Shown piece after piece: positions 58,257-64,000 of a DNA stretch of 64,000 bases (positions are counted from its first letter, which is position 1; each line of letters starts with the position of its first letter). The stretch covers positions 62,001 to 126,000 of the forward strand of contig NZ_MAOC01000020.1 in the NCBI RefSeq assembly GCF_001884135.1. The letters run 5' to 3'. Source of the stretch: Bacillus nitratireducens. GTDB lineage: Bacteria > Bacillota > Bacilli > Bacillales > Bacillaceae_G. A program made the position numbers and the translations under genes. A model generated the notes under the pieces. The model did no database searches. It saw only the letters and a list, made by a program, of their open reading frames with translations, and was not told the DNA's origin.

Positions 58257-58295
58257 GAAAAACCTTCCACAATTGTGGAAGGTTTCTTATTTTTC
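58257..58295. terminator. Bidirectional terminator
   Basis: 26-bp perfect palindrome at 58260-58285 (arm AAACCTTCCACAA), A-run before and T-run after it; between converging genes. Confidence 0.88.
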
Positions 58296-59243
58296 GATAA
58301 CACTCATATTTATATTATAAGCTTTCTCAATATTTAATTTGTACGTCCCATTTCCTGTTTTTATCGAGTTTTTATACCAATGTTCTTGCTCGTTTAATTC
58401 TGGATTTTCTTCTGAAGAATTATTTTCTTTTTTCGTTAAATCTTCTACTTGTTCCCAAGGTGTGTTTCCATGAGTTTCTTTTTTGTTTGTTACGGCGATT
58501 AAAGATACATCACTTTCTTTTGCTAAATGAACAGATACATTCGAACTTTCTTGTACAAACCAATTATTTTGTAATTGGCCTGGATAAAGGGATAGTTCGT
58601 TATTTGAAGCACGAACTTCTACATTTTTATTTTGCGGAAGAACGAGTGTTGGTTTTACCTGTGGTGCTGAATTCCATAACGTATGTTGAACTGGTAATGA
58701 TTTTAAAGTGATATACATCGTTTCCCCAGCTGTTTGAACTGAAAGGAAATCTTCTTGTTTTAAATTAAGTTTTTCATTAGCTTTCGTTGTCATTTCATAT
58801 GTTCCAAGAAGGTGAATTTGATTTGTATCATTACCCTCTATTGTTAGAGGATAATGCCCTGCATCCACTACAATTTTTTTGATAGATTCAGGTATATCAA
58901 GTTGTCCACTTGGAATATTACTCGTTTGCTGAGTGGTATGAATAGAATGACGAACTTCATCTAGTAATCCAGTTGATAATAAACAGTAAAAAGCAATTCC
59001 GACGCTTCCTAAAACGCCGATAAAGAAAATACTAAAAATATCATATTTAATAAAGGATTGTTCCTTCTTAGAAAATAGAAGGTATAGTAAAATTTCCACG
59101 CCAAGTATGATAAGTAAAACAGGCCACCAAGCTGTTAAGGAATCTAATACCTCAGTACCTTTTATAACTGAAAATAGTAAGAAGCAACCTAATGCAATAA
59201 TAGAAAGCCCCATTGAAAATGTTCCAACGCGCCATGTTCTCAT
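58287..59243 (-). CDS. Membrane protein with LiaF-like N terminus and strand-rich tail
   Basis: 318 residues. Three or four membrane helices at the start (about 10-30, 36-56, 68-92) with a LTAWWPVLLIILGVEILL segment like LiaF/DUF5668 proteins, then a large outer domain rich in strands (about 105-270), where a DUF4097-like fold is possible, and an acidic tail. Last gene of the ECF operon; it overlaps the preceding gene by four bases. Confidence 0.68.
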   Translation of the reverse strand: MRTWRVGTFSMGLSIIALGCFLLFSVIKGTEVLDSLTAWWPVLLIILGVEILLYLLFSKKEQSFIKYDIFSIFFIGVLGSVGIAFYCLLSTGLLDEVRHSIHTTQQTSNIPSGQLDIPESIKKIVVDAGHYPLTIEGNDTNQIHLLGTYEMTTKANEKLNLKQEDFLSVQTAGETMYITLKSLPVQHTLWNSAPQVKPTLVLPQNKNVEVRASNNELSLYPGQLQNNWFVQESSNVSVHLAKESDVSLIAVTNKKETHGNTPWEQVEDLTKKENNSSEENPELNEQEHWYKNSIKTGNGTYKLNIEKAYNINMSVIEK

Positions 59244-60310
59244 TCTTTTGTACCACCTTTGTTTTCTTTATTTCCAATTAACAATTTAAAGCCGCCACCA
59301 ATTAAGAGGAGTGCAACGATAGATGTTTGGAAATAGCGATAATATAGTTCGCTAAGATGAATGTTAAATATAGTTGCAAAGTAATCGTTCAAAATAGGAA
59401 GGACTGTTTGATCTAATAAATAATAACCACCGAGTGTAATTAACCCAATGCCGATCCATCTTTGATGATTGATAAAATAATCAATGATAGGTTCGTCATT
59501 TACACGTTCTTTTCCATACTTTGCGGTTTGCTGTAAAGCGTCAAAAAAGCTATAGAACCAAATGATTGGAACTAAAAATAAAAACGCTGAAAGTCTTAAT
59601 AAGTCGAGTAAATATATGGAAAGTAAAAAGGCTGCCATAAGCTGAAGGCCGCGGCGTTGTAAGCCTAAATACATATGTCCTGCTCCGGGGAACATCGCTA
59701 AAATAGAAGCGAATGTTTTATTCTTCTTTCCTTGTTCACGGTGTTCTTCAAACTCTTCAAAAATAGTACGATCATCTAGTTGCTCGCCACGTTCTTTTTT
59801 CTGGAGTTGCTGAACAACATCGAAGAAATTGTAAATCCATAAAACAGGTAATGTAATAAGGAAGATAAGGAAACTTTCTTGCGATGTTAAAAGTGCAACG
59901 AAAATAATCATACTTCCGATTCCTGTGCAAGCTACTAAAAATGTAAGTCCACGTTGCATAAGTCCTAATTGAAAATGTCCAAGTCCAGGGATGATTGATA
60001 GGAGAATGATATAAAATCGTTCGCTCTCTTTAGAGGACTCTGTAAATTCTCCGGCAGCTTGTTTTTTTGATTGATTAATAATAGTGATAACTAAATCTAA
60101 TAAATTGATCGCCCATAAGACGACTAGTAAAAATAGAGAAAGAAAAGCAATATCACGCGCACCTAATGCTATTGTACAAAATGCTGCAAAGATAAATAGA
60201 AATACAGCCCCTCCGCTATATAAAATAAACCGTCCAAATTTCTTTAAATATAAATGTCCAAGCCCGGGAATTAGCCCTAATACAAGTGCTAAAAAGGGAT
60301 TTTTATTCAT
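59240..60310 (-). CDS. Polytopic membrane protein with triple PGLGH repeat
   Basis: 356 residues, about nine membrane helices. One unit occurs three times: LIPGLGHLYLKKFGRF (about 13), IIPGLGHFQLGLMQRG (about 107) and MFPGAGHMYLGLQRRG (about 208), each followed by two helices and a WxxxxFDxxQ-like end (NLLDLV, NFFDVVQQ, SFFDALQQ). This shows internal triplication of a two-helix TM2-like module. Overlaps the anti-sigma gene by eight bases. Function unknown. Confidence 0.75.
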   Translation of the reverse strand: MNKNPFLALVLGLIPGLGHLYLKKFGRFILYSGGAVFLFIFAAFCTIALGARDIAFLSLFLLVVLWAINLLDLVITIINQSKKQAAGEFTESSKESERFYIILLSIIPGLGHFQLGLMQRGLTFLVACTGIGSMIIFVALLTSQESFLIFLITLPVLWIYNFFDVVQQLQKKERGEQLDDRTIFEEFEEHREQGKKNKTFASILAMFPGAGHMYLGLQRRGLQLMAAFLLSIYLLDLLRLSAFLFLVPIIWFYSFFDALQQTAKYGKERVNDEPIIDYFINHQRWIGIGLITLGGYYLLDQTVLPILNDYFATIFNIHLSELYYRYFQTSIVALLLIGGGFKLLIGNKENKGGTKE

Positions 60311-60746
60311 GCTTTGAACCTCCGTCCTTTTTTGATGTGTCTACCGATTTGTTTACAATTTGTTGTGAGATAGAAGACTCGTTATGTTTTGAAGATTTCT
60401 CGAAATTTGATGTTGCTGTGAAAATATACTGGAATAAACCACTTACCATAAAAATAATTGTAGCCGCAGTTGCAATTATGTAGTGAATAATCGTGCGCTT
60501 TAGTGAGTTTGTTTTTATATTTTCATTAGATTGTAGTGTTTCAAAATTAATTTGCGTCATAACTTCGTTCGTAAATGAATCATCATTTATCATTGGAAGG
60601 TTTTCATGTTGTTCATCAATACTTTCCATATAAAGTGCTAAACAATGATCACATTCATAAAGATGTTCTTCCATAGATTCACGTTCATTGCTTGCTATAA
60701 AATCTAAAGTATAATTGCGCCAATCTTCTTTTGAATAATGCATCAT
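60303..60746 (-). CDS. Zinc-finger membrane anti-sigma factor
   Basis: 147 residues. The N-terminal part has EEHLYECDHCLALY, the HxxxCxxC zinc motif of ZAS anti-sigma factors; one membrane helix (about 85-107) and a short outer tail follow. ATG 60746 overlaps the sigma stop by four bases and has GGAGGAAG before it. It should hold the ECF factor at the membrane until a signal appears. Confidence 0.85.
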   Translation of the reverse strand: MMHYSKEDWRNYTLDFIASNERESMEEHLYECDHCLALYMESIDEQHENLPMINDDSFTNEVMTQINFETLQSNENIKTNSLKRTIIHYIIATAATIIFMVSGLFQYIFTATSNFEKSSKHNESSISQQIVNKSVDTSKKDGGSKHE

Positions 60747-61288
60747 AGAAACTCTTCCTCCTTCCAATGTTTTTTAATCCATTTTCTTGCCCGATACAGT
60801 TTCATTTCGACTGTTTTCACTTCGATATTTTCCTGAAAAGCAATTTCTTGATAACTTTTTTCCTCTAAATAATGCGCGAGAACGACATCACGGTAATTTT
60901 CCGGAAGTTCTCTCAGTTTTTGAGCAATCAATAATTTTTGTTCTTTCGTCAATAGTAAAGCTTCAATGTTATGAGAGGATTTTATATTTTCCTCAGTTTC
61001 TTTACATAAGGAGAGTTCTTCGTGTTCTCTAGCTTTCTTCCTTTTATAATCAATAGCGTGATTGGTGGCAATACGTGCCATCCACGTTTTTAATCCGCGA
61101 AATTGATAATTAGGGAGAGAGCTGTGAATTTTTACGAATACTTCTTGTGTAACATCTTTAGCATCTTCTTCATGTCTTAAAATAGAAAAGATAACTTGAA
61201 AAATATAATGACGATATGTTTGTACAAGGATACGAAAAGCATGTTCGCTTCCTTGCTGTGCTTTTTCAATTAATTGTTTTTCCTCAAT
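60743..61288 (-). CDS. ECF-type sigma factor with AUU start codon
   Basis: 181 residues from ATT at 61288-61286. Region 2 (YRHYIFQVIFSILRHEEDAK, DVTQEVFVKIHSSLPNYQFR, GLKTWMARIATNHAIDYKR) and region 4 (LPENYRDVVLAHYLEEKSYQ) are complete. Between the in-frame stop TAG at 61318 and region 2 there is no ATG, GTG, TTG or CTG. AAGGAGG at 61304-61298 stands nine bases before the ATT. An ATG at 61081 would remove most of region 2. First gene of a four-gene overlapping operon. Confidence 0.85.
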   Translation of the reverse strand: MEEKQLIEKAQQGSEHAFRILVQTYRHYIFQVIFSILRHEEDAKDVTQEVFVKIHSSLPNYQFRGLKTWMARIATNHAIDYKRKKAREHEELSLCKETEENIKSSHNIEALLLTKEQKLLIAQKLRELPENYRDVVLAHYLEEKSYQEIAFQENIEVKTVEMKLYRARKWIKKHWKEEEFL

Positions 61289-61297
61289 GGGTCTCTC

Positions 61298-61354
61298 CCT
61301 CCTTTTTGACGCATTCTATTATATAGACGTAAGAAATGATCGGTCACCCTACAC
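61298..61354 (-). promoter_or_regulatory. Leader of the ECF sigma operon
   Basis: Strong SD AAGGAGG (61304-61298). On the minus strand CGTCTA (61329-61324) could be an ECF-type -10, with TGTAGG (61353-61348) 18 bases upstream as a weak -35; this would fit autoregulation, but the match is poor. The rest of the gap to 61508 is AT-rich with no ORF. Confidence 0.4.
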
Positions 61355-61478
61355 ATGTTGTAAAAAAAGAATAATATATTTTTAGGAAGGAAGCTATATG
61401 AAAAAAGGTGTGAAAAAATGGTAAAGAGAAGTATATAATGAGCAAGTAGGAAATGTTACGGGAAGAAAGGATGTGAAT

Positions 61479-61511
61479 GTTAGTAGGGGAAGGTCCATAC
61501 TAACAAACATG
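61479..61511 (+). promoter_or_regulatory. Hairpin with SD in its loop before the response regulator
   Basis: GTTAGTA (61479-61485) pairs with TACTAAC (61498-61504); the 12-base loop contains GGGGAAGG. The ATG follows four bases after the stem. The SD to ATG distance is about 15 bases unfolded. An upstream in-frame GTG at 61473 is an alternative start. Confidence 0.5.
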
Positions 61512-62147
61512 AAAATTAAAATATTAATAGCGGATGATAATTCTTTTATTAGAGAAGGCATGAAAATTATTTTAAATACATATGAAGAGTTCGAAGTTGT
61601 AGATACAGTAAATGATGGGAAAGAAGCAGTGGACTATTGCAAAAAGAACGACGTCGATATTGCCCTTTTAGATGTTCGTATGCCAAACATGAACGGGGTA
61701 GAGGCAACAAAGTTCATTTGTGAAGAGACGAAAACGAAACCGCTAATTTTAACGACGTTTGATGATGATGAATATATTTTGGACGCAGTAAAAAACGGAG
61801 CGAAAGGTTATTTGTTAAAAAATAACGATCCAGAGCGTATCCGTGATGCAATAAAAGGAGTATATAACGGTCAAACTGTTATGCAAGATGTAGTACTTGA
61901 TAAAATTAAGTCTAATTTAATGGAAAGTAAAGAAGAAGAATCTAAAATTGATAAGAGCCTTTTCACAGAAAGAGAGCTTAGTATTATCGCATTAATTGCG
62001 AAAGGTTTCTCAAATAAAGAAATTTCGAAGAAACTTTTCATATCTGAAGGAACGATTGCAAATTATATTACATCAGTTTTAGGGAAAACTGGACTTGAAC
62101 ATCGTACACAAATTGCAATTTATTATTTAACAGGGAAAGTAGATTAA
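61509..62147 (+). CDS. NarL/LuxR-type response regulator
   Basis: 212 residues. Receiver domain KIKILIADDNSFIREG with phospho-acceptor Asp55 in LLDVRMP, and a C-terminal LuxR helix-turn-helix (FTERELSIIALIAKGFSNKE, ISKKLFISEGTIANYITSVL). ATG 61509 gives a normal receiver start; GTG 61473 would add 12 residues. It is followed four bases later by its kinase and then by an ABC transporter, the probable target. Confidence 0.9.
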   Translation: MKIKILIADDNSFIREGMKIILNTYEEFEVVDTVNDGKEAVDYCKKNDVDIALLDVRMPNMNGVEATKFICEETKTKPLILTTFDDDEYILDAVKNGAKGYLLKNNDPERIRDAIKGVYNGQTVMQDVVLDKIKSNLMESKEEESKIDKSLFTERELSIIALIAKGFSNKEISKKLFISEGTIANYITSVLGKTGLEHRTQIAIYYLTGKVD

Positions 62148-62151
62148 AGAT

Positions 62152-63252
62152 ATGGAATTTTGGTTAATTGTAAGTAAATTAATTGTCTTTATATATATTG
62201 TGTTTAGTTACATTTATTTAAATGTCGCGAACTTACCATGGATTATACTTACTTTGCTTTTATATCTTTCTGTAAACGTTCTGATTTCTATATTTAAAAA
62301 AGATACGTACAAAAATATATTAACTAGTGTTTCAATTGGTATAGTTATGTTATTTACATGGAAGGTTCATCCGTTTTTTATTTTGTTTTTACCATTGAAC
62401 TTATATGAAATTATATTTCATTATATAGAGAAGAAATGGCAGCTTTTTATCATTATGATGATTCCTATTATCTTTACAGAAGAAAGTATTCGAATGACAT
62501 ATGGATTAATTGTTGCATTTTCTTTCATCGTATTAACTATGGCAGAACGGTATATATCGCGTGTATTAAAGCTTGAATCACAAAATGATAAGATGCGAAA
62601 AGATATGCAGCGACTGACGAAAAGCCTAAATGAAAATAAAGAGTACATAAGGCAATCGGAGTACACATTTAAGTTAGAAGAGAGAAATCGGTTATCACAA
62701 GAAATTCATGATAAAATCGGTCACTCGATGACAGGTGCGCTAATTCAAATGGAAGCAGCAAAGAGATTAATGGGGATAGATAAAGAAAAATCTGCCGAGT
62801 TATTACAAAATGCAATTCATATTTCGAAAGATGGAATTGAAAGTATTCGGGTTACATTAAAAAATATGAAGCCACCAACAGAGCAAATTGGCATTCATCG
62901 TATGAAATTATTCATAGAGGAATTTGCTGGTAAGCATGATATAAATATTCCTTTCGTATATAAAGGGAATTTGGATATGATTTCACCAATTCAGTGGAAG
63001 ATTATCGGTGAAAATGTTACGGAGGCACTAACGAACGCGATGAAATATGCTGATGCGACAGTCATTTCAATCGATATTCATGTACTTAACAAGATGGTGA
63101 AAGTACAAGTGAAGGATAATGGTAAAGGTGCAGATCTCGTTAAGAAAGGCCTCGGTATTATGGGGATGGAGGAGCGAACAGCGTCTGTAAACGGTAAAAT
63201 CATTGTAGATGGAACAAGTGGTTTTTCAGTAACGATGTTGTTGCCGATATGA
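62152..63252 (+). CDS. Sensor histidine kinase, HisKA_3 type
   Basis: 366 residues: about five or six N-terminal membrane helices with little outside (intramembrane-type sensor), a coiled coil (about 140-170), phospho-acceptor His186 in SQEIHDKIGH, and an ATPase domain with EALTNAMKYADAT and VKDNGKGAD. It pairs with the regulator before it. The layout resembles DesK/LnrJ-type systems that sense membrane-active compounds. Confidence 0.9.
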   Translation: MEFWLIVSKLIVFIYIVFSYIYLNVANLPWIILTLLLYLSVNVLISIFKKDTYKNILTSVSIGIVMLFTWKVHPFFILFLPLNLYEIIFHYIEKKWQLFIIMMIPIIFTEESIRMTYGLIVAFSFIVLTMAERYISRVLKLESQNDKMRKDMQRLTKSLNENKEYIRQSEYTFKLEERNRLSQEIHDKIGHSMTGALIQMEAAKRLMGIDKEKSAELLQNAIHISKDGIESIRVTLKNMKPPTEQIGIHRMKLFIEEFAGKHDINIPFVYKGNLDMISPIQWKIIGENVTEALTNAMKYADATVISIDIHVLNKMVKVQVKDNGKGADLVKKGLGIMGMEERTASVNGKIIVDGTSGFSVTMLLPI

Positions 63253-63264
63253 GGGATGAATCAT

Positions 63265-63310
63265 CTCATATGAAAAAAGTGAATATTCTCATGTGAAAAG
63301 AGTGAACTTC
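63265..63310 (+). repeat. Two 23-bp direct repeats before the ABC transporter gene
   Basis: 63265-63287 and 63288-63310 are tandem and agree at 18 of 23 positions (CTCATRTGAAAA core, then AGTGAA). A period near two helical turns suits a response-regulator site. The second copy runs into the terminator hairpin. Confidence 0.5.
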
Positions 63311-63335
63311 TGCACTGAGCAGGTTCACTTTTTTT
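63297..63335 (+). terminator. Terminator after the histidine kinase gene
   Basis: Stem AGTGAAC / GTTCACT with an inner CTGC / GCAG pairing and a TTTTTTT tail. Confidence 0.78.
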
Positions 63336-63377
63336 GTTTATAATAAACAGCAGAGAAACCGAAATAGGGGTGAAATG

Positions 63378-64000
63378 ATGAATACATTAGAAATTAAAAA
63401 TTTAACGAAAAAATTTGGTGATTTCATCGCGGTAGATAATATGTCGTTATCTATTAAAGAAGGAGAGATATTTGGCTTTTTAGGATCAAATGGTGCTGGT
63501 AAGAGTACAACGATAAATATGATTGCTGGGTTGTTAAGAAGTAATGAAGGTGAAATTAGCATACTAGGAAAAAATATAAAGAAACATAATCGATTTGCCA
63601 AAATGAACATCGGTATCGTTCCGCAAGATATTGCGATTTATGAAGAGTTAACTGCCTATGAAAATGTGAAATTCTTTGCTGGATTGTATGGGTTAAGAGG
63701 AGTGGAGTTAAAAGCGAGAGTAGAGGAAGCACTTCAATTTGTGGGGCTTAGCGATAAACATAAAAGTTACCCAAAAAACTTTTCTGGTGGAATGAAACGA
63801 AGACTGAATATCGCTTGTGCAATCGCTCATAGACCGAAATTAATTATTATGGATGAGCCGACAGTTGGAATTGATCCACAATCAAGAAACTATATCCTCC
63901 AGTCTGTTCGAAAATTAAATGAAATGGGAAGCACCATTATTTATACGAGTCACTACATGGAAGAAGTAGAAGAGATTTGTTCGAAAATAGCAATTGTCGA
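63378..64000 (+). CDS. ABC transporter ATP-binding protein, cut by window end
   Basis: The first 207 residues are seen; the frame is open at base 64000. Walker A GSNGAGKST (about 39), signature FSGGMKRRLNIACA, Walker B LIIMDEPTVGIDP and H loop YTSHYMEE form a complete CcmA/DrrA-like export ATPase core. AGGGGTGA lies before two adjacent ATG codons; the second (63378) has the better spacing. With the two-component system upstream it recalls drug-responsive ABC exporters such as LnrLMN. The permease genes would lie beyond the window. Confidence 0.9.
   Translation, partial: MNTLEIKNLTKKFGDFIAVDNMSLSIKEGEIFGFLGSNGAGKSTTINMIAGLLRSNEGEISILGKNIKKHNRFAKMNIGIVPQDIAIYEELTAYENVKFFAGLYGLRGVELKARVEEALQFVGLSDKHKSYPKNFSGGMKRRLNIACAIAHRPKLIIMDEPTVGIDPQSRNYILQSVRKLNEMGSTIIYTSHYMEEVEEICSKIAIV

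Follow-up and report, generated by a model that had tools for sequence, protein, structure and literature searches.

The sigma factor gene and its start codon

The DNA analysed here (the window) is a stretch of 64,000 nucleotides from Bacillus nitratireducens (contig NZ_MAOC01000020.1, positions 62,001 to 126,000), whose minus strand carries a gene for an extracytoplasmic function (ECF) sigma factor followed by a gene for a putative anti-sigma factor (Table 1). From stop to stop, the frame of the sigma gene spans positions 60743-61315. Past the upstream TAG it reads AAT GCG TCA AAA AGG AGG GAG AGA CCC ATT GAG GAA. The first-pass annotation had proposed that translation starts at the ATT, noting that no ATG, GTG, TTG or CTG occurs in frame between the TAG and the ATG at 61081 (codon 70, with ATT as codon 1), that a full Shine-Dalgarno (SD) sequence, AAGGAGG, stands nine bases before the ATT (gap between GGAGG and ATT, 9 nt), and that the sigma stop codon overlaps the next gene as ATGA. 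These three readings were borne out by the sequence, and such starts turned out to be wider spread than first supposed (see below). Behind the same SD, a TTG (61287-61285, minus strand) overlaps the ATT in the +1 frame and opens a 5-codon open reading frame (ORF; 61270-61287), a possible decoy start.

Table 1. Features of the sigma factor operon and its upstream region in the window.
Feature	Position	Strand	Basis
LiaF-TM domain protein, same operon	58287..59243	-	Pfam
Multi-pass membrane protein (by eye), DUF6677 match, same operon	59240..60310	-	Pfam
Putative anti-sigma gene, ATG start, ATGA overlap (60746-60743) with sigma stop	60303..60746	-	position, weak NCBIfam match
ECF sigma factor gene, 181 codons counted from ATT	60743..61288	-	Pfam and NCBIfam matches
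SD of putative anti-sigma gene, AAGGAGG	60757..60763	-	sequence
AUU start codon of sigma gene (predicted)	61286..61288	-	sequence, alignment, SD spacing, substitution pattern
Leader, 28 nt (predicted); transcription predicted to begin at 61316, within the in-frame TAG	61289..61316	-	analogy to Tt-RpoE1
SD of sigma gene, AAGGAGG, 9 nt ahead of ATT	61298..61304	-	sequence
In-frame TAG closing the sigma frame upstream	61316..61318	-	sequence
-10 element CGTC (then TATA) of putative autoregulated ECF promoter	61326..61329	-	upstream-region listing, motif, Tt-RpoE1 -10 rule
-35 element TGTAGGG; 19 nt between TGTAG and CGTC	61347..61353	-	upstream-region listing, motif

The 181-residue protein read from the ATT matches Pfam Sigma70_r2 (residues 21-87) and Sigma70_r4_2 (residues 120-170). 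This is the layout of ECF (group 4 sigma-70) factors, which have regions 2 and 4 alone with a short linker between them. The best-matching ECF factors of solved structure align to residues 2-173, starting at their own residue 6 or 7; the N-terminus predicted from the ATT is therefore of the usual ECF length. Were translation to start at codon 22, the aligned residues ahead of that codon would be missing; from codon 70, so would most of region 2.

The protein also matches the NCBIfam model NF007224 (PRK09642, "RNA polymerase sigma factor"), scoring 353.9 bits against a cut-off of 212. The model has 160 positions, however, and its match is limited to residues 22-181, model position 1 falling on residue 22. 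Probably its members were annotated from an internal codon because they lack a canonical start upstream, the AUU having been missed. Loss of an AUU start in annotation has a worked precedent in Borrelia PncA (PMC13398362). Orthologs in two genomes of the comparison (G314 and G001) score below the NF007224 cut-off, and none of 14 control genomes, B. subtilis included, has a match above it.

Start codons in distant relatives

A search for close strains of the window in genome contigs, viral contigs, plasmids and slightly fewer than 800 distinct genomes yielded none, the best match having about 57% identity. The best 80 of 234 genome-contig matches were kept; viral contigs gave no match; and tblastn against plasmids returned 615 records, all below 60% identity (about 33% for the best among the matches listed). 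The genomes scanned were 397 of one order, 41 of a family and 398 of a class, the last giving no match at E <= 1e-60, the only range asked for. The comparison was made between the window and 191 distant loci (38-57% identity), 192 in all. A first set of 98 loci combined 8 genome-contig matches, 30 loci from one order, 59 fetched loci and 2 from the family, minus one duplicate; 102 genomes of the order had matched, 89 were used (88 without the duplicate) and 13 with E >= 2.4e-33 were left out. The second set (93 loci, 60 regions fetched) came from the orders of Gorillibacterium and of Brevibacillus massiliensis. Of 296 genomes sampled from the former order, 207 had a match to the sigma gene at E <= 1e-32; in the latter order 5 of 39 had one. 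Ninety of the 207 were used, namely the best 30 (Gorillibacterium itself being L003) and 60 other rows among the matches listed, so the weakest matches lie outside the sample. The order names Paenibacillales and Bacillales were taken from the named centre genomes. Excluded before counting were a paralog (L073, 26%), duplicates (L158, L192, L212), distant genome-contig matches (L009-L072, L074-L080), DNA matches (L111-L120) and controls (L277-L303).

Start codons were assigned by an alignment-free rule (the SD rule) that takes the ATG, GTG, TTG, CTG, ATT, ATC or ATA codon nearest to 8 nt behind the SD core in the sigma frame. The 192 loci distribute as ATT 117, TTG 24, ATA 17, GTG 14, ATC 14, ATG 4 and CTG 1, with one locus (L006) giving no candidate. 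ATT, ATC or ATA is thus found at SD distance in 148 loci, counting L005, which is scored ATA and reads ATG on inspection. These codons are used by all 91 loci of the Gorillibacterium and Cohnella group, by all five of the B. massiliensis order and by 51 of the 95 loci elsewhere, besides the window. (The last group takes in L006 and L008, whose titles are not Bacillales.) Placement behind the SD is specific to the frame: in the sigma frame the rule finds a start-like codon in 191 of 192 loci, in the two alternative frames in 64 and 8. Within the 148 loci, no canonical codon precedes the start in the open frame in 68, none occurs in codons 2-9 in 133, and neither is present in 61.

Alignment gave a comparable picture. 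In the column of the window ATT, the window and the loci of the first set together have ATT in 41 (window included), TTG in 13, GTG in 12, ATA in 7, ATC in 4, ATG in 2 and another codon in 20. Eighteen of these 20 have TTG, GTG or ATG no more than two codons away, and the remaining two (L141, L102) an adjacent ATT or ATA. L103 is CTG by the SD rule and TTG by alignment. Among named relatives, ATT is found in Bacillus sp. B1-b2 and ATC in Brevibacillus massiliensis, Gorillibacterium timonense and Cohnella faecalis. As a control, the start of SigW was located by tblastn in 25 genomes picked because their own locus has ATT. ATG stands at the aligned position in 24 of them and one codon upstream in the last.

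Substitutions were counted between paired loci in each of the three codon positions. Only ATT/ATC/ATA loci were paired, so that by construction codon 1 shows no differences at its first two bases. In 25 disjoint pairs, differences at positions 1/2/3 numbered 67/65/66 in the nine triplets upstream of the start, 39/29/71 in codons 2-9 and 38/30/92 in codons 10-17. The corresponding figures for 44 disjoint pairs from the other two groups (Gorillibacterium and Cohnella, and B. massiliensis) were 113/135/87, 76/52/143 and 58/41/143. The third-position excess typical of coding sequence is therefore present right after the start codon and absent before it; the third base of the start codon itself differs in 4 of the 25 and 8 of the 44 pairs. 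An excess that sets in at this codon, together with the SD ahead of it, leaves ATT, ATC or ATA as the start. Overall, initiation at AUU, as first proposed for the window, is well supported by conservation across orders, by a placement behind the SD that is specific to the frame, by the coding pattern and by predicted leaders, that of the window included, most of which lack canonical in-frame codons (see below).

The history of the codon was traced on a quickly built protein tree with 190 rows (L006 and L008 omitted), from which about the first five codons were left out. It requires 10 changes between canonical and non-canonical starts. When the root is set where the two main groups part best, which leaves six Gorillibacterium-group rows on the opposite side, parsimony infers an ancestral non-canonical start that became canonical 6 times and was regained 4 times. 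ATT, ATC and ATA replaced one another 21 times; they gave way to TTG or GTG seven times and to ATG once. L103 was entered as TTG, and L005 was kept as non-canonical, hence mislabelled. Since many branches are weakly supported (53 of 185 inner branches starred) and L005 is mislabelled, the tree is read only as suggesting that the non-canonical trait is old and ATG rare.

Individual loci showed further variations. In nine of them (L087, L095, L097, L099, L170, L172, L175, L179 and L180) a GTG stands behind AAGGAGG or a variant of it, a natural replacement of the weak start. In five others (L182, L183, L186, L193 and L194) the conserved N-terminus lies two codons farther from the ATT (ATT TTA ACG ...), with SD spacing kept. 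One in-frame TAG interrupts the sigma gene match of genome G953 (L195).

Promoter, leader and neighbouring genes

The first-pass annotation had envisaged a self-amplifying sigma operon, an idea with which the region just upstream of the gene agrees. The window has here a putative ECF-type promoter of its own, with CGTC at -10 and a -35 element. Across loci the motif is TGTAGGG (often TGCAGGG in the second set), followed after 18 or 19 nt, counted from TGYAG, by CGTCTA. A strict match is present in 152 of the 191 loci and a looser one in 14, with none in 25; 20 base shuffles of each upstream region produced no strict match. In the ECF factor Tt-RpoE1, CGTC is the experimentally defined -10 element, located at -13 to -10, and the factor activates its own gene in vitro (PMC3397946).

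Positioned by this analogy, the predicted leader measures 17-47 nt in the 118 non-canonical loci with a strict promoter, and in 110 of them it contains no canonical in-frame codon. A start near codon -10, considered for some loci, was rejected: by the promoter rule it would not lie downstream of the point where transcription is predicted to begin. When the leader of the window was folded as RNA, no structure emerged beyond that of shuffled sequences (z 0.22).

The gene downstream of the sigma gene is called a putative anti-sigma gene from its position and from a weak match to an NCBIfam anti-sigma model (E 0.0062, 16.6 bits against a cut-off of 100); it has no Pfam match. An ORF of at least 60 codons occupies this place in 99 of 99 loci. 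With the search restricted to canonical codons, its start lies on the sigma stop or close to it in all 99, and is ATG in 87. Median predicted SD energies are close, -16.2 for the sigma gene (non-canonical loci) and -17.2 for the putative anti-sigma gene; the difference between the two genes would therefore lie mainly in the start codon and not in the SD. As to the coupling to the sigma gene that the first-pass annotation foresaw, the putative anti-sigma gene has a strong SD and an ATG of its own and so need not depend on translation of the sigma gene.

Two further genes of the operon, of DUF6677 and LiaF-TM type (58287-60310, minus strand), hint at a function in the cell envelope. DNA similar to the DUF6677-type stretch lies beside the sigma gene in many relatives. 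Divergent from the operon, at 61473-63998 on the plus strand, are genes which, from their translations, we take to encode a response regulator, a histidine kinase and an ABC transporter ATPase.

The weak start codon as a possible brake

We consider it likely that the sigma factor is translated from AUU and that this weak start, set on a strong SD, keeps the sigma factor below its anti-sigma factor in a self-activating operon. Many relatives in two large groups of spore-formers keep this odd and very rare start, so the AUU is probably a deliberate brake on the amount of sigma factor and not an error. Under this scheme the sigma factor would drive its own operon from the TGTAGGG-N17-CGTC promoter, and the transcript would begin about 28 nt before the start codon, with room for little more than the strong SD. 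Ribosomes would initiate inefficiently at the AUU, while the anti-sigma gene, with its overlapping ATG and equally strong SD, would be translated well, so that its product stays in excess despite the feedback on the operon. A signal releasing the anti-sigma factor would then elicit a response limited in size by the weak start; initiation factor 3 (IF3), by rejecting AUU, would set the limit.

The sequences themselves show the codon and its conservation, the frame and the periodicity, the promoter motif and the start of the anti-sigma gene. Autoregulation, low translation, the sigma/anti-sigma ratio and the input from IF3 are proposals, dependence on IF3 and a low basal level of sigma factor being modelled on SigR, ccpN and cvfC1. 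SigR of Streptomyces is likewise an ECF sigma factor. In the SigR study, sigR starts with GTC and is repressed by IF3, RsrA normally exceeds SigR, and a canonical start leaves expression of the regulon unregulated (PMC5472188). Like the window gene, as judged for the latter from sequence and comparison, SigR is a sigma factor with a start outside ATG/GTG/TTG that is cotranscribed with an anti-sigma factor (a putative one in our case), and its start has been misannotated in genomes. Unlike it, SigR starts with GTC instead of ATT, ATA or ATC and is a different sigma factor from a different phylum; repression by IF3 was demonstrated for SigR and is suggested by analogy for the window family, and conservation spans Streptomyces in one case and more than one order of Bacilli in the other.

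The other parallels share the codon type. The infC gene starts with ATT in E. coli, ATC in Streptomyces and AUA in S. aureus (PMC5472188, PMC13009471); it resembles the window gene in its non-canonical ATN start and, in S. aureus, its extended SD, but it encodes the discriminating factor itself and not a transcription regulator. The S. aureus AUU start of cvfC1 and the AUA starts of ccpN and infC sit on extended SDs, and in reporters such starts gave about 10% of AUG activity in poor medium, and up to 30% for ccpN in rich medium (PMC13009471). Thus ccpN (AUA in S. aureus and B. subtilis) and cvfC1 are genes of Bacilli in which a conserved AUA or AUU on an extended SD yields a fraction of AUG output, as we propose here. 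They are not sigma factors and have no anti-sigma partner, and their starts were mapped by Ribo-Ret and tested with reporters, whereas the window family is known from sequence.

Several observations weigh against this reading. In the Bacillales and other group, 43 of 95 loci use TTG, GTG or ATG (one scored CTG counted in); the brake is therefore not needed everywhere, canonical starts being found in much of the first set. TTG and GTG are themselves weaker starts than ATG, which does not remove the objection. Some canonical codon lies upstream in the open frame in 80 of the 148 loci, and 8 of the 118 predicted leaders contain one (L093, L133, L136, L149, L005, L188, L191 and L207). Not all loci have the promoter, as the 25 without the motif and the 14 with only a loose form of it attest. 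Applied to SigW, the SD rule picked ATG in 22 genomes, ATA in 2 and ATT in 1, although an ATG stands one or two codons away in those three; the rule can therefore err when a canonical codon is close by. In the sigma family just five of the 148 loci (L126, L133, L136, L178 and L188) have such a neighbour at SD distance. Finally, conservation of the start could reflect tolerance and not selection.

This last point leads to an explanation that we regard as possible but rather unlikely, namely that AUU is the true start without regulatory meaning, a codon that drifted to weakness and is put up with thanks to a strong SD and a small demand for sigma factor. The mixed use of ATT, ATC, ATA, TTG and GTG, with about 10 canonical/non-canonical changes on the tree, does show that the codon is exchangeable. 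On the other hand, all 96 loci examined outside the Bacillales and other group are non-canonical (one of them, L188, with an adjacent ATG); ATG is rare (4 of 192 loci by the SD rule, 6 of 99 by alignment, where the search was limited to 3 codons around the aligned column and the TTG, GTG and ATG counts arise partly by construction) even though a single substitution separates it from ATT, ATC and ATA; and SigW keeps ATG in 25 of the same genomes.

A start elsewhere in the frame, either at a canonical codon farther upstream, as available in some loci, or internally at codon 10, 22 or 70, seems improbable. It might account for the alignment of NF007224 from residue 22 only. Some loci do have a GTG as codon 10, or an NTG around codon -10, and in 7 of 54 loci some SD-like stretch precedes the first internal canonical codon. 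No SD precedes it in the other 47, however, and codons 2-9 evolve as coding sequence where the upstream triplets do not. The alignment with ECF structures from residue 2, the scarcity of canonical codons in the predicted leaders and, in the window, their absence ahead of codon 70 likewise argue against such a start.

Even less probable is a sequence error or a change peculiar to the window strain, with a canonical start in close strains. Although the searches produced no close strain in which to read the codon, the nearest relatives found (L081, L082, L105, L121 and L122) all have ATT at the same place, and a base error is unlikely given that so many relatives share the codon; moreover, NF007224 lacks the first 21 residues, as would be expected if its members were annotated from an internal codon. 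Out-of-frame initiation, at the ATG at 61314 or the TTG overlapping the ATT, with frameshifting or as a decoy lowering sigma output, can be given very little credence: a TTG occurs in that frame at SD spacing in 38 of 192 loci, but the arrangement is not conserved, 128 loci having no start-like codon there.

Both AUU starts and the use of a non-canonical start by a sigma factor were known before; what is new is the breadth of the present case and the combination of its elements. Experimentally characterised non-canonical start codons are very few, as the SigR report states (PMC5472188). In a search of open-licence full-text literature, the matches listed included SigR but no description of an AUU-started ECF family.

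A broader proposal, for and against which we find the case evenly balanced, is that an AUH start (AUU, AUC or AUA) on an ultra-short leader is an ancient translational governor, retained by a single ECF sigma family in Bacillales, Paenibacillales and relatives of Brevibacillus. IF3 and the state of the ribosome would then form a second input, besides the anti-sigma factor, to an envelope-type stress response in very many species, and the canonical starts in part of the Bacillales would be later replacements. The data also suggest that gene finders limited to ATG, GTG and TTG would truncate or lose the whole family, and that a public model carries this truncation. If the reading of the AUU start is true, the family would provide a large and widely conserved set of non-canonical starts in a regulator, with controls in the same genomes and natural replacements by TTG or GTG, so that comparisons could test what the start codon does.
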